Of a stretch of DNA of 64,000 nt, positions 14,275 to 37,100 are shown piece by piece. Below the pieces are notes generated by a model that saw only the letters and a program-made list of their open reading frames with translations, searched no databases and was not told where the DNA came from. Location: positions 62,001-126,000 of the IMG/VR virus record IMGVR_UViG_3300009702_000785; one strand, given 5' to 3'. Each line of letters starts with the position of its first letter. Within the stretch, counting starts at the first letter, position 1. This stretch comes from a virus. The position numbers and the translations under genes were made by a program.

Positions 14275-17200
14275 ATGATGGCAAGGAATACTTGCGGAGA
14301 TTGTGAAGTTGGACCAAAACAAGAAGCGGCTAGTTCTGTAGCTGGTAATATAGGAACATTATGCGCGAAGGTTGAAATATGGGAGAATGATCCTTTCTAT
14401 GCCAGGCCGCATCAAACAACCACCTTCCCTTTCAGCAACTTAGTTCCAGAACAACTGCCTGATGATACACCTGGATTGGAATGGTTGATGAACAGTGCTT
14501 TTTTGAAGCCTATATACCAACCCCAAGACATGTTCATATGTTCTTATAATCCTAACATTGAAAAAGAATTTGTTAATCCTACTGCTGATGAATTCACCTT
14601 CAAAGGCAAGGCTCGTAATCTGGATTTCGTGGGGTCTCTAGATTCTATGACAGGAAAGATCGCAGGTCCAAGATTGCCGGGTGGCATAGTATACGAAACA
14701 CAATATACTAGGCTAGCTACTGGTATAGGTGATTTCGCTGCTTCTGTTGCCGGATTGACCGACCTGCGTTTCGTTCCCAATTCTGGCAAAGACGTTTTTC
14801 CTCATCAGGTATGGATGCATGTAGGCAGCATATTTAAGAGGGGCGTTGCTCTGCATCCCTCGGAATATGCCAAACCCCTAGATGAAATCATAGCAACTAG
14901 AAGTGTTGATGTCGCCATAGCAGCAGCAGCAGAGGAATCTATATCACTTGCAACACCTTTCTGTGAAGGTTTCACAGATGAAGAAATACATGGTGCTGTG
15001 AAATGGGACTACGTTAAACATACAGAAGAGGGGACTGACACAGTTTGGCCATACCAAATAACCAAACAAGCCCCTGGCAGGGGTGTCCCAGTACACTGGA
15101 CGCTTGAAAAATTCACACCTGTTTATCAGGGTCAGGATTTTTTCGTAACCATCGAGACCAAGAAGGAGACCGACGAATCTCCAGATGTTTTGCTCGAAAA
15201 TGAGTTTATAGGTAGTTGTGTTGAAGATTACAAATATCTGATGTACGACAATACGGTCCAGCCTGCTGAATGGATTAATGGGATTAGCAACTCGGCATTT
15301 TTTGTTGCTGCGGACAAAGAGGCAGATGGTACGGTAACGACAGAATCAGTCGATAAAGCCAAAGATGCTGCCCGTAAACAATACTGGTGGAAATACAAAT
15401 CGTACATCTTGATTGAGATTGGAACGGGGCATCCCGACCACAACTATTTCATTGAGCTAGTCAAAGGCCGTAATCCCAGGCTGCTACACCTTGGGTACAT
15501 ATGGGATAATCCGAAGCGTCGTATTGGCGGTGAAATCGAACCTAAAGAAGATGAACTGAACTGGCATTTTATGAAACAATGCAGAATGCTAGGAGAATTC
15601 GGCTCAGTATCTTGCAACGAACTGTTCAAGCAGGACAGTTTCAGGTTGTCAGTTAGAAACCATATAGGAAGATTAATTATCACATTCGAGGGATATGAGG
15701 GATCGCCTTGGGTTATACAGAGACGAGATAACGAACCTCATCAGTTTGATTTTAGAAAAACACTTATTCCTATGGTGGTTCCTTCGTCCAAGCTTCGCAT
15801 ACACGGGGGAAACCTATCATGTGTTGTAAATTATAGTCCATTGCAGTATACCAAGACCGAAACTGTATACTTCAGAGATAGACAAGCAGACACCTCTAAG
15901 GCAGGTAATAATGATCTATGGATGACATTTTCTCATATGGGTGGTAGTCAACTGTACCAAAATCCAGCGAGAGTCAAACGCATATTCAGCGATCCCCGTC
16001 TCAACAACAAGCAAGGTAAGTTCAGCTACGACATAGATGCTTATATTGCTGGGGAAATCCATCGCAATAAGAAAGAAGATGTCAATCTGTACAGAATATT
16101 TAGGCGACAGTATACTGAGTGGGGCAAGGGATGGGTCTTGGATGTTGATAGGGACGCGGATGGCGAGCCAAAGCGAGACCCTGATACTGGGCTCATATCT
16201 GAGAAAGGACTCAAATCTGGTTTTAATGGTGGCACACCTCATTCGCTTAGAATAGACAATGCCAAACAACCTGGACAGGAATTTCAATTCGGATTACGAG
16301 GACAGTCTAATGCAAACTATCCATACAAGGAATATGCATCGAAATGGGATGTCCAAATTAAATTCAATGCGGGTACGGTATTGTTACCTGTTGCTGAATC
16401 CAAGGCTACGAGTGGTGCATTTGATTCCGCTGAAGACCCGTCCATTATAATAGACGACAGGGCAAAACAGTATTTGATGGTAGATTCTGTTACTCCTATC
16501 GCTACTAGCTGGCGTTTGATTGTATTGGGTGGTGAAAAACCTACCCGTAAAAGTAGCGGCACTCCCAAAATAAAACCGTTTGACATCGCACCACTGACAA
16601 CTAAAATTACTGATGGTTGGACCAGTGAAGGATGGCACACTATACGTCACGAAGCTAAGGTACAATGCTATATACCACTTGATACGGCTATTGGCGATAA
16701 CAAGGAATTGTATAGACTTGGTAAGAGAGTCAAAGATTTACATAACAAAGCCTTCTACGTAACCATATCGTACTGGTGGGCTGATGGAATAGGTGAGCGT
16801 GATGCTATCGCAAATAAGATCAAGAGAAAAAATCCAGATGAAAATGATCTCCTGATACAGATGACTGGCATAGCCTATGGTGGTACGTTAAGTAGGTCTG
16901 TCAACAAAATATTCTTTGATTTTGATGTTAAAGATTACATGTCAGTTCTTGAGAAACAATTTATTTTCAACTCACCATTCTTTGACGGAGTGGCTGACGC
17001 AGAAGCAGTATATGAGTTAGCCAGATTAGCAGGATTTGATGACGAAGACAAAACATCTAGCAGAATCAATAGGCAACCACTTGGTTTCTTGCAACACGTC
17101 ATAAAGTTTAACAGAAGAAATGCTGATGGTAAGTTTGTCTACAACGGCGAGACGGTACGCAGTCCGACATATGACTTGCCAGGATCATACGCCACCTTAC

Positions 17201-18003
17201 AACAACCGGCTGTTAGGTTCCAAAACGGTGAGACGTATGAAGATGCCTTTACTAAAATTGCCCAGTTATCGACCAAGGTGATATATTTCGATAGGTGGGG
17301 GGTACTCAGATTAGAGAGCGTTCCAGCCATTGAGGCAGCATTCTTTGCCAAAGGTGATGACGTGGATAAGTTTGAATCTGTATTCGATTTTGTCACCTCA
17401 CCATTCCCTGTGAAAGCTCGTGACCCAGGCGATGGGTCAGTGTCAACACGTAAATTCCAATTTGACCCTTGTAAGCACGGATCGCATCTGGTTTACGACG
17501 TTGTACAGTATAATAGAAGTGTAGAAGATTGCATCAACCAGATCGTCGTTTTTACAGCCAGCAACGACATACTTTTGCCTTCGGGCGAAAGAGTGGATGG
17601 CGGGTTTATTGTTGAAGGATATACGTTTTTTGACCAGATTTGGAACCCTGAAGAAGAAGGGTTCTTAGGTTTCCGCAAGCCTTTCTATCAGTCGAATGGT
17701 GTATTTGGCGGGATACAGGGAGTACGCAGAGGTTTGCAGCATTATGCCAAAATGAAATACCCCATTGCTACGGTGCAATTTAGTACCTATGGCATACCAG
17801 GTTTGAAAGCATTAGACATTATTACACTGGATGATAATCTATTCTATATCACGGAGATCAATCACGATCTTGATCCATCCACAAACAGATGGTGGATGAA
17901 CATCACAGGCGAATGGCTAAAGCCATTTTTAGGAGACTTAGGTTTTCTTGAAGAGAGAGACGGTCCAGCAGATCAAGCCACAAAGGAAACAGAGGAACCA
18001 TAA
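14275..18003 (+). CDS. Putative tail hub / tip protein, 1242 aa
   Basis: This is a probable central tail-tip or hub-like protein. The N-terminus carries a CxxC (NTCGDCEVG). Residues about 850-1240 have the character of hub proteins: a beta segment ending KDYMSVLEKQF, a helix (AEAVYELARLAGF), then AFTKIAQLSTKVIYFDRWGV and LRLESVPAIEA, followed by a long beta-rich tail (LKALDIITLDDNLFYITEIN). The 'helix, then strand with D-x-x-G-x-L' arrangement is seen in gp27/Tal-type hub domains. No peptidase motif was identified. Start is ATG 14275, with a second ATG directly after it; AAGGGA lies close upstream. The preceding ORF is in frame across TAG, so a fused product is formally possible. The exact role is inferred. 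Confidence 0.6.
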   Translation: MMARNTCGDCEVGPKQEAASSVAGNIGTLCAKVEIWENDPFYARPHQTTTFPFSNLVPEQLPDDTPGLEWLMNSAFLKPIYQPQDMFICSYNPNIEKEFVNPTADEFTFKGKARNLDFVGSLDSMTGKIAGPRLPGGIVYETQYTRLATGIGDFAASVAGLTDLRFVPNSGKDVFPHQVWMHVGSIFKRGVALHPSEYAKPLDEIIATRSVDVAIAAAAEESISLATPFCEGFTDEEIHGAVKWDYVKHTEEGTDTVWPYQITKQAPGRGVPVHWTLEKFTPVYQGQDFFVTIETKKETDESPDVLLENEFIGSCVEDYKYLMYDNTVQPAEWINGISNSAFFVAADKEADGTVTTESVDKAKDAARKQYWWKYKSYILIEIGTGHPDHNYFIELVKGRNPRLLHLGYIWDNPKRRIGGEIEPKEDELNWHFMKQCRMLGEFGSVSCNELFKQDSFRLSVRNHIGRLIITFEGYEGSPWVIQRRDNEPHQFDFRKTLIPMVVPSSKLRIHGGNLSCVVNYSPLQYTKTETVYFRDRQADTSKAGNNDLWMTFSHMGGSQLYQNPARVKRIFSDPRLNNKQGKFSYDIDAYIAGEIHRNKKEDVNLYRIFRRQYTEWGKGWVLDVDRDADGEPKRDPDTGLISEKGLKSGFNGGTPHSLRIDNAKQPGQEFQFGLRGQSNANYPYKEYASKWDVQIKFNAGTVLLPVAESKATSGAFDSAEDPSIIIDDRAKQYLMVDSVTPIATSWRLIVLGGEKPTRKSSGTPKIKPFDIAPLTTKITDGWTSEGWHTIRHEAKVQCYIPLDTAIGDNKELYRLGKRVKDLHNKAFYVTISYWWADGIGERDAIANKIKRKNPDENDLLIQMTGIAYGGTLSRSVNKIFFDFDVKDYMSVLEKQFIFNSPFFDGVADAEAVYELARLAGFDDEDKTSSRINRQPLGFLQHVIKFNRRNADGKFVYNGETVRSPTYDLPGSYATLQQPAVRFQNGETYEDAFTKIAQLSTKVIYFDRWGVLRLESVPAIEAAFFAKGDDVDKFESVFDFVTSPFPVKARDPGDGSVSTRKFQFDPCKHGSHLVYDVVQYNRSVEDCINQIVVFTASNDILLPSGERVDGGFIVEGYTFFDQIWNPEEEGFLGFRKPFYQSNGVFGGIQGVRRGLQHYAKMKYPIATVQFSTYGIPGLKALDIITLDDNLFYITEINHDLDPSTNRWWMNITGEWLKPFLGDLGFLEERDGPADQATKETEEP

Positions 18004-18019: not shown

Positions 18020-18220
18020 ATGTATGGTAGAAAGAAACGCAGGAGATCGATTCACAATCCTGCCAAACGTAGGCCGGTTACAAAATCGCAGGCAGTTCGC
18101 ATTGCGAACGCAGAAACTTTTCAGAGAACGTTTAATCCAGACTACTATCAGGTAATGAAACGCATATCTGACGCTGAAACCGGTTTACGAAATGGGTCAC
18201 CTCCACACACAGTGGAATAA
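18020..18220 (+). CDS. Small basic protein, 66 aa
   Basis: I do not recognise this protein. The N-terminal third is strongly basic (MYGRKKRRRSIHNPAKRRPV) and the remainder is mixed helix (QAVRIANAETFQRTF, DYYQVMKRISDAETG). A good ribosome site (AAGGAG) lies 6 bases before the ATG, so it is probably expressed. It sits between the hub-like gene and a decayed insertion region. Its TAA stop is immediately followed, in the same frame, by the alpha/beta-hydrolase remnant, which suggests a deletion or insertion boundary here. Nucleic-acid contact is suggested by the charge only. Confidence 0.65.
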   Translation: MYGRKKRRRSIHNPAKRRPVTKSQAVRIANAETFQRTFNPDYYQVMKRISDAETGLRNGSPPHTVE

Positions 18221-18535
18221 GGATGCATCGCTGTTATTAGATATTTGGAAGCTATTGACGAAATTCCGAAAGCACTGATCTTTGTCGCTCCTTATATTGA
18301 GAACGAAAATAAGCAAAACAGTCAAATCTTTTTCCATGGCCCGATTGCTTGGGATCAAATAAGAAAGTGCAAAGACATATATGCTATATTTTCTGATGAT
18401 GATCCGTTTGTTTCTCTAGAACAGAAGAATATTCTTCGGAATAAAGTTGATGCTATAACCCATGTCGAGTATGGTCAAGGACATTTCGATGGAGATAAAG
18501 TTCCTGAAATATTAGAAATTATTAAGAGTTTATAG
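18221..18535 (+). pseudogene. RBBP9/YdeN-like alpha/beta-hydrolase remnant, C-terminal half only
   Basis: This is a fragment of a small serine hydrolase. The open frame begins GCIAVIRYLE, which matches the helix directly after the nucleophile in the family's G-H-S-x-G elbow. It continues through the typical core to IFSDDDPFVSLEQ, supplying the acid Asp, and VEYGQGHFDGD, supplying the His. The nucleophile Ser and the first three strands are absent, because an in-frame TAA (18218-18220) lies immediately upstream and no N-terminal half occurs elsewhere in the window. The only usual start is TTG 18245, which would drop GCIAVIRY. The product should be catalytically dead. It ends in TAG, in frame with the open lead of the endonuclease gene. 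It appears to be a relic joined to the 66-aa gene by deletion, or cargo carried with the homing element. Confidence 0.7.
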
Positions 18536-18606
18536 GAAATGACAACTACCTCAAAAATATTTCGGAATAGGCAGGAATTAGCAATCTCCTGGCACAATGT
18601 GTTGCT

Positions 18607-18611
18607 GGAGG
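18607..18611 (+). promoter_or_regulatory. Ribosome binding site that sets the endonuclease start
   Basis: GGAGG lies 5 bases before the double ATG at 18617/18620. The earlier in-frame ATG at 18539 has no properly spaced site, so 18617 is the better start of the homing endonuclease. Confidence 0.75.
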
Positions 18612-18616
18612 ATACT

Positions 18617-19468
18617 ATGATGAAGAAAAGATGGACTCAAAATGAACTTAGTTTTTTGAAGAAAAACCTACAATTGATGACTATTCAAGAGATAGCTGGC
18701 AAATTAGGCAGAACAAAGCATGGCGTTTCAGGTAAGCTGAGGCGTCTCTATGGGGTCAATTTGGATAGAAAATCACCCAAAAGTGCGAACAGATACAATA
18801 TGAATATTGACAAGTTACATACAAAATCAGACGAGTTATTTTATTTACTGGGATTTATCGCTGCTGATGGAAATGTATCTCGGAACAGCAATACTATCAC
18901 CATCCGGCTCAGCTGGAAAGACAAACGCCTACTGGAAGATATAAAGAATTGGCTTGAGTACACTGGGCCTATTCGCAGAGAGGTTCAAAACGGATATATA
19001 CGGAGTGAAAGTGCTGTTTTATATATCACCAACAGGCATCTAAAAGACACTTTGCTGCATTACGGCATTGGACCAAATAAAAGTAAGACTATTAGGTTAC
19101 TGAACCCAATGTCGGATGAGTTTGCTGGCAGCTTCATTAGAGGGGTTTTTGATGGTGATGGATCAGTATGTAAGTCTAAGGATAACCATTTTGTAATTTA
19201 CATTTGTAGCAGTTCTATGGGTTTTCTTGAAGATTTACAAAAGTTAATGGGTTTTGGGAAAATTTCCACTAACAAAAATAAAATGCATCTGCTGTACATT
19301 CGATCATACGAAAAGAGAAGTTTTTTTGAACTTATGTATGATAATTCTAATCTGCATTTATCAAGGAAATACAAACGTATGAAAGAATCTTACGAATATG
19401 TCGTTCGACAGAATTGGAAACACAGGGAACGCAATAACCTCGGTCAATTTGCAGGAAAGAGGGTATAA
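18617..19468 (+). CDS. LAGLIDADG homing endonuclease, 283 aa
   Basis: This is a site-specific DNA endonuclease that promotes its own spread. It has two LAGLIDADG motifs, FYLLGFIAADGN (catalytic acid in ADG) and SFIRGVFDGDGS (acid in GDG), about 95 residues apart, as in monomeric two-motif enzymes. The N-terminal 50 residues form a SANT/HTH-like DNA-binding segment (WTQNELSFLKKN, TIQEIAGKLGRTKHGVSGKL). Length is normal. The frame is open back to ATG 18539, adding 26 residues, but GGAGG before 18617 favours the shorter form. No intron core can fit in the short flanks, so it looks free-standing. It lies directly before a structural gene that lacks a normal start codon, suggesting that its arrival disturbed that gene's 5' end. 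Confidence 0.9.
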   Translation: MMKKRWTQNELSFLKKNLQLMTIQEIAGKLGRTKHGVSGKLRRLYGVNLDRKSPKSANRYNMNIDKLHTKSDELFYLLGFIAADGNVSRNSNTITIRLSWKDKRLLEDIKNWLEYTGPIRREVQNGYIRSESAVLYITNRHLKDTLLHYGIGPNKSKTIRLLNPMSDEFAGSFIRGVFDGDGSVCKSKDNHFVIYICSSSMGFLEDLQKLMGFGKISTNKNKMHLLYIRSYEKRSFFELMYDNSNLHLSRKYKRMKESYEYVVRQNWKHRERNNLGQFAGKRV

Positions 19469-19470
19469 AC

Positions 19471-22400
19471 ATTTCATCGAGCACTCGTTATTATGGTCTA
19501 GGATTCTTTGATTTCGGTGACCCGCTCGGAACAGACTTTGCAGGTCAGGTAGAAATTGATCGCTTTGTCTTTATCGACAAGCAGCTATATGGCTTGATGA
19601 GTGTGTTTGGTAATGGCGTGCTGAGTGGTTGGACTGTAGAAGTAGATGAATTATTCACGGTCAACATCAGTCCCGGCGTTGGAAACATTAACTTCGTGGC
19701 CGCAAGGACGGAGTTTCCTGCCACGATCACCGAGTTGGTTCCCAACTCGATCAGCTATATCTATGCCAAAAAGGTGGAACGCACCCGGTTTGCAGAAGAT
19801 GTTGATTTCATTGTATGGCCTACGTCAGATTTAGGTGATCCTAATTTCTTATTATTAGCCGAAGTTGTTGTAGGCTCAACAGCCATTGAGAGCATTAACA
19901 ATGACATACGACAAAACATAGGTTTCATCGAGCTAATCAAAGCAGCAATCAAACTACACAAACACAGAGGCGGTTCACTGAATCCGTCCAAAATAGATTT
20001 GTCATCTGAGGTGAAGGGGCAATTGCCCTCATTCCGAATAGCTGACTTTGATGCAGAGAAGGTCACCAGCGGCACGTTTGATCTTTCTAGGATGCCACTC
20101 ATAGACCACCAAAATCTAGAGAATGTCGGCCTACTAACTCACCCACAACTTGACAGCTTCGTGAAAACACTGGAATCCAGCAACAAAGAGATTTTCGGAG
20201 AGATCAGTACATCGAACCTGTTGCAGTTGATTCTAGCAATGAAACTTTTATACGATGATAGCCAATCTGCTTTCCATATTAGTGACAGATGGGTAGATCA
20301 ATACTTCATCAACGAGTTTGCAGTTATTCCTGGTATTACACCAGATACTTATATCGACTTCGATAATACTACTGCCGATGTTGATTTGGAACAGCATGTT
20401 ATCAGCGGAGTTCCACCTACAACTGGCACATCATTTTATGTCACGTATGATACCAATCTTGCTTGGAATTCAGCCTACTCGCTTAACAACCTAGTTATTG
20501 CTAATGATACAGTAACTTTGGCATTCAACGAAGATGACGAATCTAACATTATAACTATTGAAGGTTTTGAATCGGCCACAGCACCTGGAGAAGATTTAAG
20601 TGGTGGTGACCAAACCCTCTTCAAAAAAGAAACCGTCATCATCTCCGACAATGCTATGATAGAAGCACATGATAGTGCGACTAACGTGGTGGAAGGATTC
20701 TACTCAGGTAAATTTACTTATCAGCAGGCATTCAGGGTACAGTATGTCAAAGAATTTTCCACTACCCAAGACTGGTCTACATATGACTCATTCGTACTAT
20801 ATATCAAAAGCCTTGATGTTGTCCACGGACCAGTCAAGATGTACTTTGAGGGTAATAGCAGTGATGACCGTAGCATAGATTACACCCTGCTGACGGAAAG
20901 CTCGGCATCAAGTCCACAGATTACAACCAACCCGGATTCATCTGCAAATGACTTTGAAGCTAGGGTGGTTGATCTATCTACAATACCTTTCCGTGACAAC
21001 ATAAAGAAGATCGTCATCTATACCGACGATATCGAGAATTCCTTCAGCTTCTTTGTAGACTATATAAACATTCAGAGGGCAATCTTGCTACCTGAGAGCG
21101 GCACCATGAAATTGCGTTACGCAAGTGGTGCCAAAGTTATATTCTCGAACATTCAGTGGGATACAATCGAACCATCTGGCACAGAGATCACTGTACGAGC
21201 ACGAGCAGCAGATGGCACTACACTACTTAATAGAGCAGAATATACTCCGTTTTTGAGTAGTGGTGATTTAATAAATCTAGAAGGCACGGACATCGAAATC
21301 GAAGTTGAGTTTTTCCCAGATACAGACAGAATCAGTTCCCCTGTTATGCAGTTGTTGCGCATACTGGTGGTGACCGAGGCCGAGATTGATGGTTTCCGAA
21401 TCGATACAGATGAGGAGTTTAACAGAGGTGAAAAACAAAATATAGAGGTGGACAGCAATATCACGCTTGATACACCTATATATGTGGATAGCTACTATTT
21501 CGCTTTAGCTAACACTGTTAATCAAGTCCACGAAAATACCACTAATTTTGATACGTCGTTTACCGAGTCAGATAACGTAGCATTATTTGGAGCGAGTTCA
21601 CCTATTGCACCTAATACTATTTTTGCTGCTGTCGAAGATAATACCGGTGATTCCGCATCGGCGCGATTTTTCGAGCCACGATCAGCACGAAGAGAAAGTG
21701 GTCGGGTGTTTGTAGTGGCCGATACATACAATGACCGTATTCTAGAGTATAGTGAAGACGGAACCTTACTGGCAGGGTTTGGGTCAATCAACTACGAGCA
21801 TTCAAATAAGGTATTCCCTATCTCTGCAAGTTACGATGTTAGAACTGGAATTTTGTATGTCGTTTGGAGTAAGAAAATATCATTCAAAACGGTTGACGTA
21901 AGCCAAATTACCTTACAAACAGCCACAAGTCAGATACAGTTGATAAAGAACTTTGATAAGATTCTAGGTCTGACGACGGATGAATTAGATCAGGTAAATG
22001 CTGAGGGGCAAATTATGCCCATCTATCTGTCTACGCAAAATGCAGGCTTGGCTCAACAACTACCTACAAATAACGCTGCTTTTATGCTTGCGAGTGACAA
22101 TGTTCTATCATCAGGTATTCAAAATGATTCCGTCTTCTACTCGAAAATAGCAACTGCCATCGGAATACCGATGTTTGTAGGCAACTTCGCTTACATTGAT
22201 GGTATATTCTCTCCTACTTGGGTAGAGAAGACAGACACAAATACTTATATAATCTGTAACGGAAAGATTGCGGTCAAAGAATGGGAGTTCCCTAGTGAGG
22301 CATTCCCTGGTAGTACAGAGAGCATAAACCTTAGTACTAACGTATCTAGTATTATCGAGGTGAATGAAAATAACCAGATCGTATACGGGTTAGATAGCGT

Positions 22401-22869
22401 GATGGAGTTTTCACCATTCATACCTGGACGTGCCCAAAAGATGGATGAACATACATTACTAATTGGTGGACTAAAGCCAGGAGGTAGTATTGGCAATCCT
22501 ACAGGAGATTTTGATTTTCGCAGCGTTGGAGGGCCATCTGAAACTCGTAAAGCACAACGAGATGTTCTGAATGAAATGTTTTTCACTCGGGCCGGGACTC
22601 CTTACGTTGGTGCAGTAATTGTATATGATACAAGATCAGGGGCAACCTCTTTTGAATACAGAAGTGCTGAAGGTGTGGTGGTCACTGATGTTGATATAGA
22701 CCCAATGTCAGGGTCGTATGTGGTAGCAGAAAGCAGCTTCACAAAATCAGGCCGAGTTATTAAGCTTGACGCTTCTGGGAACATTACTTTCAGTTTTGGG
22801 GAGGGTTTATATAGTCTGATTAACGACATAAATGTTCAAATTGATGGGTCAGTTGTTGTCTCAACATAA
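19471..22869 (+). CDS. Large tail/fibre protein with NHL-type repeat; normal start codon missing, about 1132 aa
   Basis: This is a probable virion protein. The reading frame is open from 19438, and clear protein sequence begins near 19480 (STRYYGLGFFDFGD, then VEIDRFVFIDKQLYGL). No ATG, GTG or TTG occurs in frame before TTG 19594. The best start is ATT at 19471, 7 bases after an AAAGAGGG site (19456-19463) inside the end of the endonuclease gene; starting at 19594/19597 would cut off 41 conserved-looking residues. Later regions include a helical segment (IGFIELIKAAIKLHKH), beta-sandwich-like parts, and an NHL propeller unit near residue 750 (VVADTYNDRILEYSEDGTLL). Insertion of the endonuclease probably removed or displaced the original start. 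The tail or fibre role is inferred from neighbours. Confidence 0.75.
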   Translation: MSSSTRYYGLGFFDFGDPLGTDFAGQVEIDRFVFIDKQLYGLMSVFGNGVLSGWTVEVDELFTVNISPGVGNINFVAARTEFPATITELVPNSISYIYAKKVERTRFAEDVDFIVWPTSDLGDPNFLLLAEVVVGSTAIESINNDIRQNIGFIELIKAAIKLHKHRGGSLNPSKIDLSSEVKGQLPSFRIADFDAEKVTSGTFDLSRMPLIDHQNLENVGLLTHPQLDSFVKTLESSNKEIFGEISTSNLLQLILAMKLLYDDSQSAFHISDRWVDQYFINEFAVIPGITPDTYIDFDNTTADVDLEQHVISGVPPTTGTSFYVTYDTNLAWNSAYSLNNLVIANDTVTLAFNEDDESNIITIEGFESATAPGEDLSGGDQTLFKKETVIISDNAMIEAHDSATNVVEGFYSGKFTYQQAFRVQYVKEFSTTQDWSTYDSFVLYIKSLDVVHGPVKMYFEGNSSDDRSIDYTLLTESSASSPQITTNPDSSANDFEARVVDLSTIPFRDNIKKIVIYTDDIENSFSFFVDYINIQRAILLPESGTMKLRYASGAKVIFSNIQWDTIEPSGTEITVRARAADGTTLLNRAEYTPFLSSGDLINLEGTDIEIEVEFFPDTDRISSPVMQLLRILVVTEAEIDGFRIDTDEEFNRGEKQNIEVDSNITLDTPIYVDSYYFALANTVNQVHENTTNFDTSFTESDNVALFGASSPIAPNTIFAAVEDNTGDSASARFFEPRSARRESGRVFVVADTYNDRILEYSEDGTLLAGFGSINYEHSNKVFPISASYDVRTGILYVVWSKKISFKTVDVSQITLQTATSQIQLIKNFDKILGLTTDELDQVNAEGQIMPIYLSTQNAGLAQQLPTNNAAFMLASDNVLSSGIQNDSVFYSKIATAIGIPMFVGNFAYIDGIFSPTWVEKTDTNTYIICNGKIAVKEWEFPSEAFPGSTESINLSTNVSSIIEVNENNQIVYGLDSVMEFSPFIPGRAQKMDEHTLLIGGLKPGGSIGNPTGDFDFRSVGGPSETRKAQRDVLNEMFFTRAGTPYVGAVIVYDTRSGATSFEYRSAEGVVVTDVDIDPMSGSYVVAESSFTKSGRVIKLDASGNITFSFGEGLYSLINDINVQIDGSVVVST

Positions 22870-23997: not shown

Positions 23998-25172
23998 TTG
24001 AATTCAAAGTCGATCCGCCAAGTGGGCACGCCGAGTCTTGCTTAGACATCCGATTTATGGTCAAAGTGGATAAAGCAGATCGAATGCAAATAGAAATATT
24101 TAATGAGACAATTAACACTCGACTAGAGTTATTATCTGTTTCAAAGGGGGTCATTTCTGAAGAAAGAACTGCCATAGTTAAGAGGGCTAACTTTGTCGAA
24201 GGATACGTCAACCTATTTAACAAAGATAAGATGAACTCTAGATTAACCAATTTGGTTAAAGTTGATCTCAAATGCGTCGTCCAAATTGAGTTGGATGGCA
24301 AAACGACCACAGAGGAAGCTGTGCTGCCTTTCTATAATGAAAGCCAGTCATTGGATTCCCATATTATCCCGTTCGATTTGATTCTCGATAACCACGAGAT
24401 CGACATCAAAAATAACATACCGCTCAGTATGCAGATTGTGTGTGACGCTGAGGAAAAATATGAACTGGCAGTGAAATCAACGGCAGGGGAGATATGCACT
24501 TTTGAAGTTGTAACCAAGAAGGGAAGAAACCAAGTGATTCTGCCTTCTGAAATATTGTGGCATGAACTTGGAATACACAAGAATATTGGTGGCAAGTGTC
24601 AGTTATACTGGGTAAAGTTTGAAGGCATAGATCACATGAAGTACGTCAATAGAAAGTATGTACCGATTGCTGAATCTACTATCACATTTAACGATGTGTT
24701 GATGAGCCCGAGACCACAACAGCGACTAGGGCCAACAGGAAAAGATTTAACACCTGATTTTGTTTTGAGTCACAGGTATTTTGTGCCAACTTTTCAAGAC
24801 TTCACATCTTTGGGAGAGATTGCCAATCAAAGCCGCACAGCCAGTGAAACGAATGTTAATCGTATCAGGTTTTTGCATGAAACCCAATCGCTCGAACGAA
24901 AAGAAGTAGAGAAAATCGAAGCAATGTCTTCTAGTGATTCGGAGCGTCTGGCAGAGAGGAAGAAGCAGATGGCAGCGATGCGATCAATACCACAACCTGA
25001 TCCTCGACAGCGACTTCTGATTAACGCATATAAGAAGGCATATACTCGTAAGTTGGCTATGCCACGTACTGATAAAGCATACGTCAAGTACGCACCGACC
25101 AATCATCCAGTTAAAACTATGTCTGGGCCAAAATCTGGCGGATGTGGATGTTCTAGGACGAAGAATGCCTAA
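23994..25172 (+). CDS. Companion protein of the first giant fibre, 392 aa
   Basis: I do not recognise a family. It is beta-rich for residues 1-230. The segment NQVILPSEILWHELG, followed about 30 residues later by NRKYVPI, parallels NHIIVPKEIIWMMYK and NILYKVPI in the 258-aa gene at 39920. That gene likewise sits directly before a giant protein, so the two look like divergent paralogues. The C-terminal 130 residues are a charged helical region (SLERKEVEKIEAMSSSDSER) ending in a small Cys/Gly tail (SGGCGCSRTKNA). It overlaps the glycosyltransferase by 4 bases and the giant gene by 8, implying tight coupling. An attachment, adaptor or chaperone role for the giant is inferred from pairing only. 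Confidence 0.7.
   Translation: MIEFKVDPPSGHAESCLDIRFMVKVDKADRMQIEIFNETINTRLELLSVSKGVISEERTAIVKRANFVEGYVNLFNKDKMNSRLTNLVKVDLKCVVQIELDGKTTTEEAVLPFYNESQSLDSHIIPFDLILDNHEIDIKNNIPLSMQIVCDAEEKYELAVKSTAGEICTFEVVTKKGRNQVILPSEILWHELGIHKNIGGKCQLYWVKFEGIDHMKYVNRKYVPIAESTITFNDVLMSPRPQQRLGPTGKDLTPDFVLSHRYFVPTFQDFTSLGEIANQSRTASETNVNRIRFLHETQSLERKEVEKIEAMSSSDSERLAERKKQMAAMRSIPQPDPRQRLLINAYKKAYTRKLAMPRTDKAYVKYAPTNHPVKTMSGPKSGGCGCSRTKNA
25155..25158 (+). promoter_or_regulatory. Ribosome binding site that sets the start of the first giant gene
   Basis: AGGA lies 6 bases before ATG 25165. The alternative GTG 25144 has no matching site, so 25165 is chosen; the ATG overlaps the TAA of the upstream gene. Confidence 0.65.
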
Positions 25173-28100
25173 GCTGTCTAAAATAACAATTAACATGCTT
25201 CACACGATTGACCATGCAGCAAGAGCAAGCGGGTTTATTCCATACTTATATGGAGACTTGGCCCGCGCCATACAGTTGGATCAATATCCGGCAGATGGCA
25301 GGTTGGTCGAAGTAGTGTTATCATACGAACATAGTAACTCGGTAGATGATTTCTACCAATCTTTGTCCAAGAAAATAACCATTAATAGAGAGATAGAGCA
25401 TTTTAACGACTTGTACTCGTTCGTTTCCTCCCCCTATGTGGTTGAATGTCAATTGCGTCAGAACTTTAACGTATTCGACAACGACATAGCGGTATTCAAT
25501 GTTGATGCACTGTTTATAGAGATGGGGCATAATGCAGACCCGGCCCCAGAGACAAATGAGTTATTGTGTTTTAAGCAACCGGATGAATGGGACATTACTC
25601 ATGTCATTGGATTTGCTGCTAAACTTGGCGAGTACCCAGATCGAATTATTAATCCAGATCAGCGAGCAGCACTAGACGAAGTACAACTATTGAAAATGCG
25701 TCATCCCTTTGGTGTGAATATCGCTGAAAAATTAATTGATTTGCTTCTCACTGCAAATCCTGGCAACGCATTTTTGTTTCTATCGTCCTTCACCGATGGA
25801 AAAGATTGGCTGGCAACGCAATTTATAGAGTTGGCATCTCGGTATTCCATTGCTCTTAACGAAGATTTTGATTTACGTGAGATAATCTCGTCCAAAAAAG
25901 CGGAATTGCTTAACGTATACAGTGAGTATTTCAAAGTCAAAAGAGAGGATTCTGAATGGAATAGACAGCACTCTATACTAACATATCTGAAGCTACTGTT
26001 TGATTCACCATCTTTAACTATAGAAACACCATATATTGACAGAGTTTCTGTGTTTGCTGCCCCAGAGACTTTCACGGTTCCAGTGGAGAATGCAACTGTA
26101 ACAACGTTTGCTGATGATAGGTGGGCATGTTGTCAGGAAGGTAATATTTGTACAGAGGTTGATAAAGCAACTTGCACTACATTACGAGGTATATGGCATG
26201 AAGGTTTGTTATGTGACGCAGTTAATTGTAGTGTCGATATCCCAGGAGACTGTGAATATCCTCCTTGTCCACCATGCGATCCAGCGGCATGTGGTGATCC
26301 TGAAAATGGTGGCGAAGCCTGCTGTTGCTGTTCAAGTGTAGATATTGTTTCGGCAACAGCATTGCAATGCCACAAGCAGATCATCATATCCTGTAACCGA
26401 GATGGCACCGGGCCTGGTCCTGATGCCGATGGTATAGAACAAGTTTTTAATTCAAACTGTAGCCAATGTACCGAAGTTTGTGAGATGATAATCAACTCGT
26501 CTGGCCCAGACGGGTGTATTAACCCTCCTAACCCGGCATTACCCAAAGTTTGCTGTGGTGAGTTACCAACTCCTTGGTTTCTTGATCCTCCAACACCTTG
26601 CAGTTGTGATTGTGCTAGGTACGACGGTGACGGAGTTTGCTCATTACATTGCATGTCTTGCAGTGGAAAGCATGCATACTGTAGATCAATAGTTACACCG
26701 GGTGGACAAGATAACGATTGCGCTTATGATTTTACTATAGAGCCTGGGCCAGAATGCTGCGGATCACCAGCGGGATTTGATGTGATCTTTGTTATTGATG
26801 ACACGGGCAGTATGGGTAGTGAAATCAAAGATGTTAAAAACGGCATTATTGGTTTTGTCCAAAACGGAATTAACCGAGGAATTCTTTCCCGTCTTGCCTT
26901 GGTAACTTTCAAAGATGATGTGTGGGTCTATGGGTTTAACGATGATGGAACTTACAATACTAATAGCCAGGTAGGGCGTGGTGGAGATGAAAAGCCACGG
27001 CCTGGACCAGTAGATTTCACAACCGATGCTACTGAGTTTGAAGCACTTGTAGGTTCTTTAACTGCGAGTGGTGGTGGTGACGGCCCTGAAAATATATATG
27101 ACGGCTCTATGCAGGGTTTGCATTATAACATGCCAGGAGCATTTGGCAACATAATGATTACCGTGTGTGATAACTCGGCTCGCAGTGATACAACTCGTGA
27201 GCAACTCATCGACTTTGCGAATTCCGAAAATTATAAGATTTTCTTCGTGGGTCCAGCAACTGGTGCCGAGCAAATAGCCATACAGACTGGTGGTTTATAT
27301 TATGACCTGACTGATGCTGATTGGGATCAAATATTCCTCGATGCCTCATCTGCTGCGGGTATCTTCCCATCATCTTGTGCTTGCGTAGATTTTACTCCAT
27401 TACCGATTATTCGAGCGGTTGGCGACCCATCAGACCCAGACAACTACTTCCCTCAATGTGCCTGTGATGATGTTAGTCAGTGCCTTCCCAATACTCCTGG
27501 TGAACTTCCATCAGAATGTTATGAATTTCCGATTCCTAAATGCGTTTCACCTGATACAGCAGAAGATTGCGATGGAATATGTGACATACCATTTGGAGTC
27601 AACGTATGTGGCACAACAATTACTATTACTCCGACCGAAACCAACATGACATGTTGTGGAACTTTGGATGGGTTCGGATGTACTTGCCCTGGTGGTGGAG
27701 GAGAATGCCCAGATTATCAGTGCTGTGGAGCAGAATGTGATGAGTTATGTGATTGGCTTGCAATACCATTCCCAACTCCAATTCACAGTAGTGTCGGCGA
27801 GGCACAGCAGTTTGTCTGGAACAACTGCCTTGCTAAAGCAACAGGGTCGTGTGGGGACGACTGCCTGTTATTCCCTACAGGTGAATGCGAAGATGATGGG
27901 GTTACTCCTATTGAATATTTCAAGGAAAAGTCGGGGCTGTTTGATGAAGTAGCGACTATATATGCTAATTGTGGTGGCGAAGGTGGAGCTTGCTGCATAG
28001 GAATAAACTGCACCACGGTATCTAGTGAATCGGAATGTGACGGAGTATGGATGGGCTATGGTACGCCATGTACTCCCAATCCTTGTGGTGGCCCAGGTGC

Positions 28101-31100
28101 AGTTGAGTTTGACTGCATCACATCCGAATGCAATTATGATGATCAATGTATTGTCGGTGAACCTGTTGTCGGTGTTAATAGGGTACAAGACCAATGTGAT
28201 GAAATATACAAAGGGTGTAGTAGTGTAGGAAAACCATCCATAGCCATTCTCAATAATGGTGTGGGACTGATTGCATATGAAACGATGGTAGATAATATTT
28301 CGACCATAAAATTACAACAGTTCCACACAAGCGTAGATTTCAAGTTATTAGCAAATAGAACTTTTGGATATGGTAGACTACAAAATAGCCTGAGATGGGA
28401 AGATGCTCCCGGTCTAACTCAGGTGTCAATAGCAACCATGTGGAGTTACGATGAGTTGCCCGTTGACATTATTCAGGGTACTGATGACCCAGCAGATTCA
28501 GATACCTGGAAAGATGTCATCGTTTTTGCTTCTGGCCCATTGGCTGGAGCATGCTTCCCAGTATACCACTTAGACCCTGCGGGTGTTGACGATGAAAAAG
28601 TAGCATGGTATGTGAAGTTTTTAGTACAAGGTGATACTGAGTTAACTTCACCATTCTTTAGCTCAGATGACTACTATCAGTCTAGATGGTATATATATGA
28701 CTACCAAACTGCCCTCAGAGATGCAGGTGGGGGCATCAACACTGATTACAAGAACTTGGTGGGTGGTGCAGGTGCAAGTGCTCAAGACTATCCATTCCCT
28801 GAATATCTATTCGGAAGTTCAAAAGATGTGGATAATATTCTTCTTGGTGACCGAATCACAGATCACATTTACAACGGTGAACGAGTCCCGATTGCTAATC
28901 CCAAGATAGACATAAGCAAAAACTATGCCCGTCCATACGAGAATTCACAATATGCTTATCTGACTTATCAGGCGCTAGAAGATGGAAAATGGAATGTATA
29001 TCTGAAGCAAATAAGACTGTCAGAATATAGTAGAGATAAGCTTATTGATGCTGCTACTGGAAGTGACAATATAATACCAATAGCCAACCCGGTAGATGAT
29101 CTAGTAGAGCCAGGACTTGGTTTGGCTGGAGTGGTATATCGCATTACTTGTGTCAGTGACAACTGTAGGGATATCGGTGGAAACGAGTTCTTGATGCAAC
29201 GTACTGTAGTTATGGAGGTCTTACTACCTGATGGTCGTGAAGTTCTAAATCCCGACCCCGATGGCGGTAATCATGGCTCTCTATGTCCAGGCGTAAAAGC
29301 AGAAAGCTTCCCAGATGGCAAGGTGTTTGTGAAGTTTGTACAGTCTGCTGTAGGGGATAGATGTCCCGATCAGTTCCAGTTTGATGACATATTCCCAAAT
29401 TGGGCTACAGGACAGGAATATTTCGTACCTCTCACTGCTGTTTCCGGTCAACAACTTTTTGATTACTTGCAGCGAGAGAGTGATGATGGAATATCGGTAG
29501 GACAATTTGATCCTCCGATTGAGCAAGGCAGTACAATGATCAGTTCTAGCAGTGTTGGAGCGGATTGGTATGACGATTTTCACACAGATACTAACAACTG
29601 GTCCGTCATAGAGTCTGAACCTTTTGACGTCCTGTCACAATTTAAGGGACTGGATATCAGTGGGCCTATACTAATTTCTACAAATGAAACAGGCCACTGT
29701 ACTAACCCAAGAATCCAAGTAGATTACAATAATCACGTATTCATCGTATATGAGCACACTGATACCGGGATACAGAATATACGATTGGTTGGGACTAAAG
29801 AGGTTGAGGATGAGTTGCCTACGGGTGTAAGTCAGGTATTTAACCCAGATGACTCTCTGAATTACTTCTTTGACAAGGATGATTTCGTATACTCCGTTGA
29901 TATAACATCGTCTGGTGAAGGCTCAAACCAGTTACCTGACCTGTACATCGACTTGAATAATGTACTACACTTGGCTTGGCAGTCCAACAGAGACAAGGTG
30001 TGGGAGATTTACTACGCGAACTCTACCAATAACTTTGCGTACAAGCGAATCACTAAGCACGAGGGCAGATCACTTAAACCATCAATTACTTCCAACCCGT
30101 CTGGAAATCTGTTCATTACTTGGCACGACAATAGATATGGCAACTACGAGATTATGATGGCGTATCACCCAGGAGTCAGGGTAATTCCGCTTTACCAGCA
30201 AGACCCATATCTGGCTTCTTTGCGTAACTTTCATGACGGATGGTCGCATACAACAGATGTTCTACCACTGAACGTAGTGAACGATAGTGATGGGCCGATA
30301 TGCTACTCAAAATTTGATGTAAACTTCTATGAGGATAGAAATCTAGAACATCTGGCATTCACGGTATCCTCAAGTGATTATCCGTTTGCCTTTACTTTAC
30401 CAGGGTCCGAGTCAGATGTAACCACAGCTGATCTGAGTGATATTGATACACAGTGGGTAACGACATACGACTATACATATTCTGGTCCGACTATAATAAC
30501 TCAGAATTTTGTTGCAGTTAGCAACGAGATTGATACTTTCCTTGAGGACTCTACAATCAAGACCATATTGATACCAGAGTTAAATACTACAGGTGGTTGC
30601 TCGTTTGGTACTATTGAATTAAGAGCCAGTAATTTAACGGATGACCCTGATGCAGATACTCAGTGGAGTGCTGAATATTCACTATCTGGTCGTGAAGGAG
30701 AATTGATCGATCTAGAAACGCTCGGTGTTACGGAGACTGTTGCAGGTCGATACAAACAAATACGTTTGAAATGGGATTGTGATGTGTTTACAGACACATT
30801 CTCTGTAATTGATGGAGAAAGTGATGCTCACGTAGAAAGCGAATTAACATGGACCAACGATGCTGCTGAAGTGCGTCTTGGCCATGATTCTACAGCATCG
30901 TCTGCCACTTGGGGAGAGATAACCACAAGTACTAATACTACTACTGCGAAGTCATCTGATCTGATAGACATTAGCGGCACGATGTATATGTCTTGGGCTG
31001 CCGGTGGAAATAGTATTAAATTCGCCGAGTTTGATCCTTCTACGTCTTCATTCATTAACGAAGAGGTAGTCTTAGCAAGCACCCCGAATATATCCATTAT

Positions 31101-34100
31101 TGAGATATCGATTGAGAACATATTTGGTATACCAGCCATAGCATATATTATCTATAGTACTACAAGCGGCACTTACGACGTAGCATATGCCACAAGGTTT
31201 GGTGGATCATGGAACAGCTATACTGTGGTCACAGGTTTGCCGACGTTTGTATGGAGTCAAGTTTCACTATTTGACAACAACGACCAACCAGGAATTATTG
31301 TACACTTTGATGGTGGTGGAGCTTCCTCCATCAACTTTTATGCAAGTACAAGCCAAGGTCAATCATGGCAACCTGCTGAGTCAGTAGCAACTAACGTGGA
31401 CGATACTGGGGAAATATCCGCGGTAATGATTTCTGGCGTGCCCGCTGTTACATATTTGGATACCACCACTGGTAACAGGGTATACAACACCAGAGCCGGT
31501 TCGTGGGGAGTCCCGGTTACGATGTCGGTAACAACTCCCATATCAGCAACAAGATGTACAATAATGCAGTACAATACACATCCGTTATTCTTCTTCGGAG
31601 ATAGCTCAGGGATCGGCATGCGATGGTCCAGATACGATGGAGTGACTTGGACTGGTGACCAGATTATTGACGGTGCAGCAGAAATTGGGCATTACAAGCC
31701 AATGCTGGTTAACAGCATTCCAACTATCGCATACTATGAGGCATCAGGATCGGCCGAGTTTGACCTTAAGTATGCAGAGTTGACCAGTTTGCCTCTCAAT
31801 ACGTGGGACATCAACGTTATTGACGCAAGCATTGTCGCTGATACATCTGCCCCGAATCACTGGGTTCCTAGCACCACTTGGACAGGTGAACCTCCGGGCG
31901 GAGAGACGGTAGCAGAACATGCAGCCATCATGCCGCTTGTTGATACCAGCAACATTGTATACATCGAAGAATTTGATGTGGCAGGCTTAGAGAAGTTTGA
32001 TGCATACTTCCGGTTTGATAACTTTGACGTACCTGTAGATACCACGATCATTAGCTCTCATATGGAGATGAAGGCTAGAGTGGCAAGCGGTGCTGCCAAG
32101 TCAGTCATTCGTTTGTTAGATGAGGTGGATACGAGAGAATTTGAAGATAACACCACTGTGCAAATACCAATAGCCGCAGCAGCAGACGATGCAGAATTAG
32201 AGATACCCGACCTATGGAGCATAGGGAGTAATACCATTAAGTTTGGTAGCGATGGCGGATCGGACTACTACGCATACTTGAGATTCCTACTAAATATACC
32301 TGTGAATTCTCGGGTCATTGAGTCCTACGTGGAGTTCACACCTGCGGCAACTGATACTGGTGACGCCCATGCAACAATAGCACTCGTAGACGGAAGTTCG
32401 GAATTCGCAGATACGCATATTTATTCTGTTGCTATAGATAGTCAAAGCGGTGACGCTGATTATCGTATCAGTGATGAGCGATGGGAAAATAGCGCCGATA
32501 CTATACGATTTGGCGAATCAGCAGGTGAGACATATGAGGCATACCTACGTTTCTACATAACCGGAATCCCGACTTATGCGTTGATCTCGTCTGCTTCCAT
32601 CACGTTACAATCGGAATCCACTGTTGTTGGAGATTCTGATGTCGCAATCAAGCTTTTGGATTATGGCAACATAGAGTCGTTCCCAGATACGACTGTGTTA
32701 CAGTTCCAGATAGCAGCGGGTGCTGATGATGCTGATTTTAATACAGAGATTGAGGAATGGCGTAACGACCTAAGTTCTGTGCGATTCGGCGTGGATATCG
32801 ACGACTATAACGCTTACATGCGTTTCAATGTTGATATCGATCCAGATTTGAAGTATATTGCAGCACGACTACGAATTACACCTGCTGCTGATAGTTCGGG
32901 TACATCCTCAACGATGATCAAGTTATTGAACCGCAATGATGATTGGCCAAGTGCCGACCATACCGAATTCCCAACAATGCTGACTACTGATATATATGCT
33001 TCATCCAGTGATGATGATGCTATGGCAGAGGTTATCGATAACCTACCGAAGCGATGGGAAAATAGTGAGGGATATATTTGGTGGGGAACTGAGCACGCAT
33101 CGGATGGAGACCACGTTTGGGATGGTTATGTCCGGTTTGACACCTTTACGGCTGGCATTGCAGATCAAGGTCTAGGTAGGCCAAAGATCAATCGTGCTCA
33201 TATAGAGATGCAATCTGAAGGACCAACTTCTACCAGTACCACCATTATCCACGGCATTAACCGCAATGTAGAAAGAAGTGGTGGAGACGGATTCCCGCAT
33301 TACACAAGCATAACTGCCGAAATACCTAGCGCTGCAAGTGACGCATTTTTAGCTGATGATGCGGATTGGACTATCAACGAAGGAACGGTACAGTTTGGTA
33401 ATGATGGTTCTAACACATATGACGCTATACTCAGGTTTATCCCAGAAGACAAAGATTCTTCTGTACGCCTAGAAAGATACGACTACATATCAGAATCGTA
33501 TCTCAGCGTTATTGCTGTAAATAATACTTCAATTGGAGCAAATGCCCAAATCCAGTTGATTAATGATTGTTCAGTGGATGAGTTTGTAGAGTCTGATAGC
33601 GGAACGTTCATGATGGACAACGAAACATATGTTTCGGATGGATTGAGTCCTGATGCCTACGTGCAAAATGATACGACGTGGTTTAACAAAGCAAACTTTG
33701 TTAGATTTGGTACGGATGGTGCAGATTACTATGATGGATACTTGAGGATCAGAGTTTACGGCATACCGGAAGGTTCGACTATCGTATCAGCCACATTATT
33801 CTCATACCCTTACGCTGCGGAATTGAATGCATCTGATATAGCAATCACTTTAATAGATGAAAATTCAGCCGCAGCATTTAAGGGTGCCGAGTCCAAGTCT
33901 ACTTCTGCGAATACTACGGGAGATTTAGGTATAGCGGATATTGCGTATACCTATCAGGCTCAGTCAACATTAGACCCCAGCCTGGATTATGACGAGCCAG
34001 ACGAAGAGGTTCTGGCTTCTGGATTCGCCATATATGGTGACTATAATGTTTGGACTGAATACGTTGTAGGTGATGGTTCAGCAGGGGGGGAAGACCCCGT

Positions 34101-37100
34101 ATATCCATTCGAGACTCCAACTACCTACACTGATACAAGATCATATGGTGCCGTCAGTGGTGGAACCGTACACCGCATCGGAGATTTAACTTGGACTACG
34201 GAAGGTCTGTACGTTGCGTGGGTAGATAACGACACCACCCCAGATGCTCCCAATTACAAGTTGATGGTTAGTAAGCTGGTTAAGAATGGAAGTGATTGGG
34301 AGTGGAAAGATTCTACAGAGGTTGATAGTGATGTATATGGCGATGTCACAATGCTCACTGTCGATAACGACCCATGCATAAGTTATCTACGTGACAACTC
34401 GGGGACCATGCAGTTATGCTTCGCACGCAAGTTTGGCGCTGGTGGAAGTTGGCCCACACACTCCACGGTTACAGTGGTTGCTGGTGCTTCTGGTTCCACA
34501 ATCGGGTCACCACACTGCATAGAGGACGATTCGTTACAGCCTAAGATTGCATATGTTATTGGGACTACCGGTGTGGATTCCACCAACAGCATCTTCGTAG
34601 CTTCATCGACGGATGGCGGAGCCACTTTCGTCAATATTAATACCGGGATAACAACTTATGGTGGTACCCAGGATGTCAAGCTCGACTGCTTGAGAATTAC
34701 CCCAGTGAACAGTGAAATCCATATGGCTTATTCGAGGTACAATACAACATCAACTGAGATTGAGGTCTACTTCGCATACTACGATGGTTCTTGGAATGAT
34801 GTTGGTCGAGTGTACGATGGTGCTACTGCAAACTTACAAAACAAGGTTGGTAATGGTTTTGATTTAATCAGTTACGACGATTTACAGACAAGTACAACAC
34901 CTGTGCCCGTTTTATTTATGCATTATTCTGTTGCAATTAATGATCGAATACTTTGGGCCAGATCAACTGATCGTGGAACTACTTGGTCTGGTGAAAGAGT
35001 TGTAACCGGAGTCACACTTGACCCTATTAATATCAGGGCAGTTGTTACTTATGAGCAAGATGCTGTATGGACAAACGTTGTTTTTGAGGAAAACACAAGT
35101 ACATGGGATGTGCAAGTACGTCGCCAATCAGACAGTCTGAATAATCTGCCCGCATCAGGGACATGGGTAGAAGAAACCGCTTTGAGCAATATCGGCACCG
35201 ATGAAGCCGAGACTATCGCTATTGCTAACGTTAGGGATAAGCCTGCAATATTGTTCTTGCAGCCTGAATCATCTCCTACGTATGGCTGGGATAGTGCTCC
35301 TGTGGTTTACTGGGAGCAAGACTTCATTTATAGTGCTCTTGCGCGACATTACATTGAAGGCAGAAACTCAGCTAACGACTATGAAGCACCTTACTCTGAT
35401 GCTATTATAACAGAAGCTAAGTTTACGGTCACACCACAGCTACAGGATGGAGCAGACAATGACAACGATGCCAATATTAAGATGTTTAATATATCGTCAA
35501 TATCCTCTGCATGGTCTCAGTATGAGATGTTTGCCTGGTCTCTACCAGCATTATTTGAAACACCCATAACCGAGTTTACTCCTGACCCCGGTGACTGGAC
35601 AGCAGTTACAGTAGATATAACTGGTGCAGAGGAAACGGTACAAAATTATATTAACAACAGATCAGGAATGAGCAGTAGATACATTGGGTTCAAATGGGAG
35701 ACTGCTGATCTAGACGATTTGAGAAGTGCATTTAATGCTCCTGATTTCTACTATGCATACACGTATCCGCAGCGGGATTTGGATTTATCAGCGCCAGAGG
35801 TTATATGGTCCATCCAGGCTGGCGAATGGACCGGCTCCAATCCTATTGGAGTTGATATAACTGATCTAGTAGACTACTGGGTTAACAACAAGGTTTCTAG
35901 CGGGTATATGGGCATCATACTTCGAGATGCAAATTCAAGTGTTGACTCACTGAAAGAGCTAGTATCAGTTGAAGGGAATAGTACCAAGCGAGCATACATT
36001 GACGTGGTATGGAATGAACTACCTAATATTGATTATAGATCAACAACCGTTAATTGGAGCCCGAATATCTGGACCGATTCAGATATAGTAACATCGCCTG
36101 ATATACGACTGTTGATACAGGATTATGTTGACCGATGTGACCCAGGGGTATCGAGCGCAGCAATGGGATTCGGAATACAGCACGTTTCTGGATCGGTGCT
36201 GAAGACGTTTGCTGCTTACGAAGGTTCGGGATATGGTGAGCCGTCGCAATTGTATATCGAGTATTCACCGTACATTAACGTAACTCCATACTTGCCGGAT
36301 AAGCAAGTCAGTTGGTCTACTGGAACTTGGGCTGATTTGGAGACTGTGACCACTCCTGATCTGCGGGGTATTGTGAAGCCGTGGTTTGATAGCTACTTTT
36401 CATTCTACGGGACTAAGTATATTGGATTCAGGATATCGACTGCGACTGATATTCTTAAATCAGTCAAGTCGTCCGAGGGCGGAACTGACATCAAGCTACA
36501 TATCGAGTACTCACCGGAAGGTACTAGGACGACGGATGGCAGTGGCATAAGCTGGGTTGATGCAACTGATTGGGATACTGTTGGCAGTGGTGACGCAGTG
36601 GAAGTCACTTCACCTGACTTGTTAACTCTAATTGATACGGTATTCACATCAGATTCCTGGCGATATCACTGGGACCAGTATGGATACGGAACGTCTGGCA
36701 TAGGGTATTATCTGGACGAAGAGCATACTACAGTAAACCCAGATTTTACTGGGCAATATATTGGTTTTGTTATAGAAGAAGTCAGCAGCAGTGTTTTGAG
36801 GGAGTTTATCTCGAAAGACACACCTTTTGCTGCTGCCATATTAGAGATAGACAAAACTGAGGATGGACCGCGTAACCGATATATGATTGACTCTGCCACA
36901 GAGCATCCTGGTATACCGTGGACGGCCTCATCATGGGATGGTATTGAGAAAACAGCAGACATCACAGCCTTAGTAACCGAGTATATAGATTTACCGAGCT
37001 ACTCGATGTCTGGATCATATATGGGACTGGTGATCGAAAATCATACAGTCGGTAATCCATTGAAGTCATTCTTCGCTTACGACGCAGCGGGATATAGTGG

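Follow-up and report, generated by a model that had tools for sequence, protein, structure and literature searches.

Gene content of the locus

The analyzed sequence (hereafter the window) comprises bases 62001-126000 (64 kb) of a 133,119-base virus record, and a single metagenomic record is its source. In the window, an insert of about 1.25 kb (approximately 18221-19468) lies between a small gene and a large tail-region gene (P0001), and it consists of the 3' fragment of a hydrolase gene followed by a LAGLIDADG endonuclease gene (Table 1). No other 1,248-nt stretch that was tested in the window had a GC content as low as that of the insert (0.366).

Table 1. Features of the insertion locus (window coordinates).
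Feature	Position	Strand	Basis or match
Conserved upstream structural gene, syntenic in relatives	14275..18003	+	tblastn, E down to 3e-78
Small gene, 66 aa, stop TAA 18218-18220, intact left flank of the insertion	18020..18220	+	Flanked by the same two genes in relatives
Left junction TAAGGAT: stop and AAGGA, overlapping the first hydrolase-fragment codons GGA TGC	18218..18224	+	Pattern in relatives; inferred
RBBP9-like serine hydrolase, 3' fragment, 104 codons and TAG	18221..18535	+	PF06821; PDB 9fcr/2qs9
Leader, 81 nt, with ATG 18539 (MTTTS...) and weak Shine-Dalgarno	18536..18616	+	Outside the part common to nearly all endonuclease relatives
Homing endonuclease (LAGLIDADG, N-terminal HTH), probably starting at ATG 18617	18617..19468	+	LAGLIDADG_3, 6.5e-17; phrog_4645
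Shine-Dalgarno AAAGAGGG, within the 3' end of the endonuclease gene	19456..19463	+	Duplex -6.3 kcal/mol
Tail-region gene P0001, 1132 codons, probable ATT start 19471	19471..22869	+	30 viral relatives

The hydrolase fragment matched profile positions 66-157 of PF06821 (E=3e-4) and residues 77-181 of RBBP9 (E=7e-7). It begins two residues past the nucleophile serine, which is Ser75 in RBBP9. Since the nucleophile falls just outside the fragment, it should not yield an active enzyme and is presumably catalytically dead. The hydrolase gene was absent from the 30 viral relatives described below, being unique to this record among the 31. Regarding a donor of the combined hydrolase and endonuclease block, no endonuclease relative adjoined a hydrolase or a P0001-type tail gene.

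The full endonuclease open reading frame extends from 18539 to the stop codon TAA at 19466-19468. Both LAGLIDADG motifs are kept with their acidic residue (Asp; GFIAADG and GVFDGDG), which, together with the LAGLIDADG_3 match, points to a homing-endonuclease catalytic domain. Relatives of the endonuclease occur in phages and viral contigs, where they sit elsewhere in their own genomes. Most of them align only from approximately residue 26-31, and a GGAGG stands at the right distance from ATG 18617/18620 (-9.3 kcal/mol vs. -2.4 kcal/mol for ATG 18539), so the true start is most likely ATG 18617. The sequence ATG ACA ACT ACC TCA (MTTTS), with which the first-pass annotation opened this gene, is present at 18539, but the gene itself probably starts downstream of it. 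At L004:15037-17121, a trypsin-like protease gene is split by an apparent LAGLIDADG intein beside the active-site HVLA motif, and the same genome carries another endonuclease gene, LAGLIDADG/HNH-like, at L004:8532-9350.

Comparison with viral relatives

Single-sequence scans of viral and genome contigs, phage records, and plasmids with the structural genes, the endonuclease, and the hydrolase fragment returned distant endonucleases only. A paralog of the N-terminus of the tail-region gene was located in the same genome by local tblastn (L006:2509), and IMG/VR was searched with an alignment of the gene and this paralog, which yielded 14 and then 30 viral relatives. No close relative was among them (26-53% identity across the N-terminus), and exact ancestral junctions are therefore not visible. 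The relatives share the order of upstream gene, small gene, and tail-region gene, partly followed by a glycosyltransferase; in each of the 14 relatives found first, the upstream gene matched by tblastn 5' of the P0001 homolog. The short protein of the small gene gave no tblastn match against the relatives, and its C-terminus (...NGSPPHTVE) resembles, by eye, that of their small genes (...GGPPTVG).

The insertion was absent from all 30 relatives. The distance from the small-gene stop to the start of the tail-region gene is -1 to 37 nt in 28 loci of relatives, compared with 1,250 nt here. The insert thus separates two genes that are adjacent in relatives, as is expected for a free-standing endonuclease, and synteny agrees with the earlier proposal that an endonuclease-bearing insertion stands exactly at the start of the tail-region gene, where the usual start codon is missing. 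The same spacing places the ancestral start beside 18220, since the small-gene stop and the start lie at most 37 nt apart in relatives, and not at 18539. The further suggestion that the insertion had carried off a start contained in MTTTS was not supported, as 318 nt of the insert, from 18221 on, precede ATG 18539.

At the left junction, the small-gene stop runs into AAGGA (18219-18223). In four relatives (L008, L010, L018, and L034), TAAGGA precedes the ATG, and AAGGA is accordingly a probable remnant of the original ribosome-binding region of the tail-region gene, orphaned by the insertion. The short sequence shared at this junction (TAAGGA / GGA TGC) may have served the joining. No convincing direct repeat indicative of a target-site duplication was found at the insert junctions, and promoter or terminator signals within the insert were no more frequent than by chance.

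Start position of the tail-region gene

The frame of the tail-region gene is open from 19438 to 22869 and is preceded by an in-frame TAA (19435-19437). The first usual start codons in this frame are TTG 19594 and then ATG 19597, the former 41 codons after ATT 19471. These 41 codons encode SSTRYYGLGFFDFGDPLGTDFAGQVEIDRFVFIDKQLYGL, which is conserved in relatives and by this measure is genuine protein sequence. It had been proposed that at least 41 codons of the protein precede its first usual start, and both the open frame and the conservation confirm this.

The N-terminus is intact in 27 distinct relatives, of which 25 start with ATG and two with GTG. The distance from the start to an R(F/W)xx(I/V)D anchor is 30 residues in 19 of the 27, 29 residues in six, and 27 residues in two; from ATT 19471 to the same anchor, it is also 30 residues. 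The in-genome paralog aligns without gaps over the first residues, and its ATG stands opposite ATT 19471. Judged from these alignments, ATT 19471 occupies the place of the ancestral start. A start at the equivalent of 19597 in insertion-free relatives had been named as the observation that would speak against a displaced start, and none was found; the starts of the relatives correspond to the position of ATT 19471 (exactly in 19 of 27). In one relative, the frame of the gene is broken near the N-terminus, apparently by 7 inserted nucleotides (TAGCTAG) that follow codon 8 (L015:5970-6000).

The sequence AAAGAGGG lies 7 nt upstream of ATT 19471. Its duplex energy is the best among the candidate starts in frame, and about 14% of random positions reach an equal value. 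For TTG 19594 and ATG 19597, there is almost no Shine-Dalgarno pairing (0.1 and -1.5 kcal/mol, respectively). The endonuclease stop ends 2 nt before the ATT. The conserved start position thus holds an ATT with a Shine-Dalgarno sequence at proper spacing, the arrangement known from AUU-initiated genes. AUU starts, which are infrequent and weak, are known for infC and pcnB (PMC9410913), AUU and AUA starts reached ~10% of the AUG level in S. aureus reporters with a strong Shine-Dalgarno (PMC13009471), and Shine-Dalgarno-assisted reinitiation following a nearby stop is on record (PMC2268962). The first-pass annotation had offered ATT 19471 with AAAGAGGG as a possible start; relatives have ATG or GTG at this position, and the ATT is now the best supported candidate for the start of the gene.

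Family searches with the P0001 protein itself gave no match. A role in the virion is weakly suggested by the position of the gene among consecutive large genes of structural type and by a weak match of one relative to a tail protein (phrog_6779, E=0.0013).

Proposed origin and alternative explanations

The reading best fitting these observations, to which we assign a probability of roughly 0.7, is that a free-standing endonuclease gene together with a hydrolase fragment was inserted at the start of the tail-region gene, for whose translation ATT 19471 is now the most likely start. The 1.25-kb block, composed of the intron-less endonuclease gene and the truncated hydrolase gene, would have entered as one between the small-gene stop at 18220 and the start of the tail-region gene. 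The insertion would have separated the gene from its ribosome-binding site, with AAGGA left behind, and translation would now depend on AAAGAGGG, which the last codons of the endonuclease gene provide. Ribosomes that terminate on the endonuclease would probably reinitiate at the ATT. The element itself may have spread as a free-standing homing endonuclease gene by cleaving an insertion-free copy. The ATG of the tail-region gene may have been lost in the insertion or by later mutation, or its absence may be a sequence error.

Against use of the ATT stand the facts that it is a poor start codon, that a structural gene is expected to need good expression, and that AAAGAGGG is decent and not exceptional. 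ATG differs from ATT by one base, and in a competing explanation the insertion is real but the gene keeps a normal ATG start, the ATT arising from an error of sequencing or assembly or from a mutation newly acquired by one population variant. Other odd stops in structural genes of the same record (TAG 38977 and a TAA in the paralog) favor such an error; the remaining length of the 1,132-codon gene is clean, however, as are most other genes, and the Shine-Dalgarno and spacing of the ATT fit, which leaves this explanation the leading competitor at a clearly lower probability. Translation from TTG 19594 or ATG 19597, giving a protein 41 residues shorter, would use the first usual start codons in frame; both lack a Shine-Dalgarno, and the region upstream of them is open without a stop and conserved in relatives, so this start is very improbable. 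Fusion of the endonuclease to the structural protein by a -1 frameshift within 19438-19465 is more doubtful still: the two frames overlap there by 28 nt, but the overlap, as read from the sequence, has no canonical slippery heptamer, and an endonuclease-tail fusion is without precedent among the relatives.

Splicing requires separate consideration, as the first-pass annotation had suggested that MTTTS is joined to SSTRYY. The insert would then be an intron capable of self-splicing, or a spliced element of another kind, with ATG ACA ACT (ACC TCA) as the 5' exon and a 3' exon from about 19474-19480, yielding MTT(TS)STRYYGL. A splice at ACT|AGC would give MTTSTRYYGL, which places the anchor at 30 residues as in relatives, and a U precedes the element and a G ends it, as group I introns require. 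The endonucleases of phrog_4645 (e.g., those of Staphylococcus Kayvirus phages) belong to the same family over residues 27-283 (E=2e-36), and related Kayvirus endonucleases are intron-encoded; in the Kayvirus example inspected, the element splits a DNA-repair gene and has ~490 nt of flanking non-coding intron (344 and 147 nt). The insert in the window, in contrast, contains only ~80 nt of non-coding sequence (about 65-70 nt ahead of the endonuclease start codon and 5-11 nt past the stop), and there is therefore no room for a self-splicing core. Furthermore, ATG 18539 lies 318 nt past the small-gene stop, vs. at most 37 nt for starts in relatives, hydrolase coding sequence separates the two, and the Shine-Dalgarno at this ATG is weak. 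The exons would not join to the N-terminus of relatives at the ancestral place, because the ancestral start adjoined 18220. An Rfam scan of the insert detected no group I or group II core, and its snoRNA-like matches were attributable to chance; this carries little weight against an intron, as the Kayvirus intron used as a positive control was missed likewise. A spliced element is thus very improbable, and the endonuclease, having its own start and stop and no space for an intron core, is placed outside any intron or intein.

Relation to known systems

Free-standing endonucleases of T4 are intergenic and coupled to their neighbors (PMC2988022). The insert in the window resembles the seg and mob genes of T4-like phages (intronless homing, PMC2988022) in that an endonuclease gene stands between conserved genes that are adjacent in relatives, on the same strand and apparently in an operon, with the regulatory signals of the neighbor displaced and stop and start codons close together. 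In contrast to the GIY-YIG or HNH enzymes encoded by seg and mob genes, the window endonuclease is of the LAGLIDADG type, and its insert carries a foreign hydrolase fragment and deprives the downstream gene of its usual start. By its features, the gene is that of an ordinary free-standing homing endonuclease whose insertion had an unusual consequence, cleavage and homing being putative. The unusual part is the landing site on a virion-gene start, together with the apparent ATT start. Among AUU-initiated genes, infC and pcnB of E. coli and cvfC1 of S. aureus likewise have ATT at a conserved start with a good Shine-Dalgarno; those starts are regulated and experimentally supported, whereas the ATT start of the tail-region gene is predicted, follows an insertion, and comes from one record.

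Set against 30 insertion-free relatives, the locus is a clear example in which a homing endonuclease has landed on the point where translation of a virion gene begins. If the ATT is used, the locus would exemplify the survival of a structural gene that a mobile element has decapitated, and the way in which such an element can become hard to lose. A stronger version, with a genuine ATT and a tail-region gene translatable only by ribosomes fresh from the endonuclease, would make a structural protein dependent on a selfish gene; it is put forward tentatively and is, on balance, unlikely. Were this coupling true, the selfish gene, having destroyed the start of its neighbor, could not be cleanly deleted.

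Other in-frame stops and tRNA genes

An in-frame TAG (38977-38979) separates the open reading frame at 25144-38976 from a same-frame continuation of 315 codons. Seven relatives read straight through at this position, most with D there, and the TAG may be a nonsense mutation, a readthrough site, or a sequence error. The in-genome paralog of the tail-region gene has a TAA at codon 15 (L006:2551-2553, record position 128450), where about two extra codons are present; seven homologs in relatives do not have this stop. A search for a suppressor tRNA for these other in-frame stops found none. At L003:3423-6145, eight tRNA genes form a cluster, and five of these encode tRNA-Leu.
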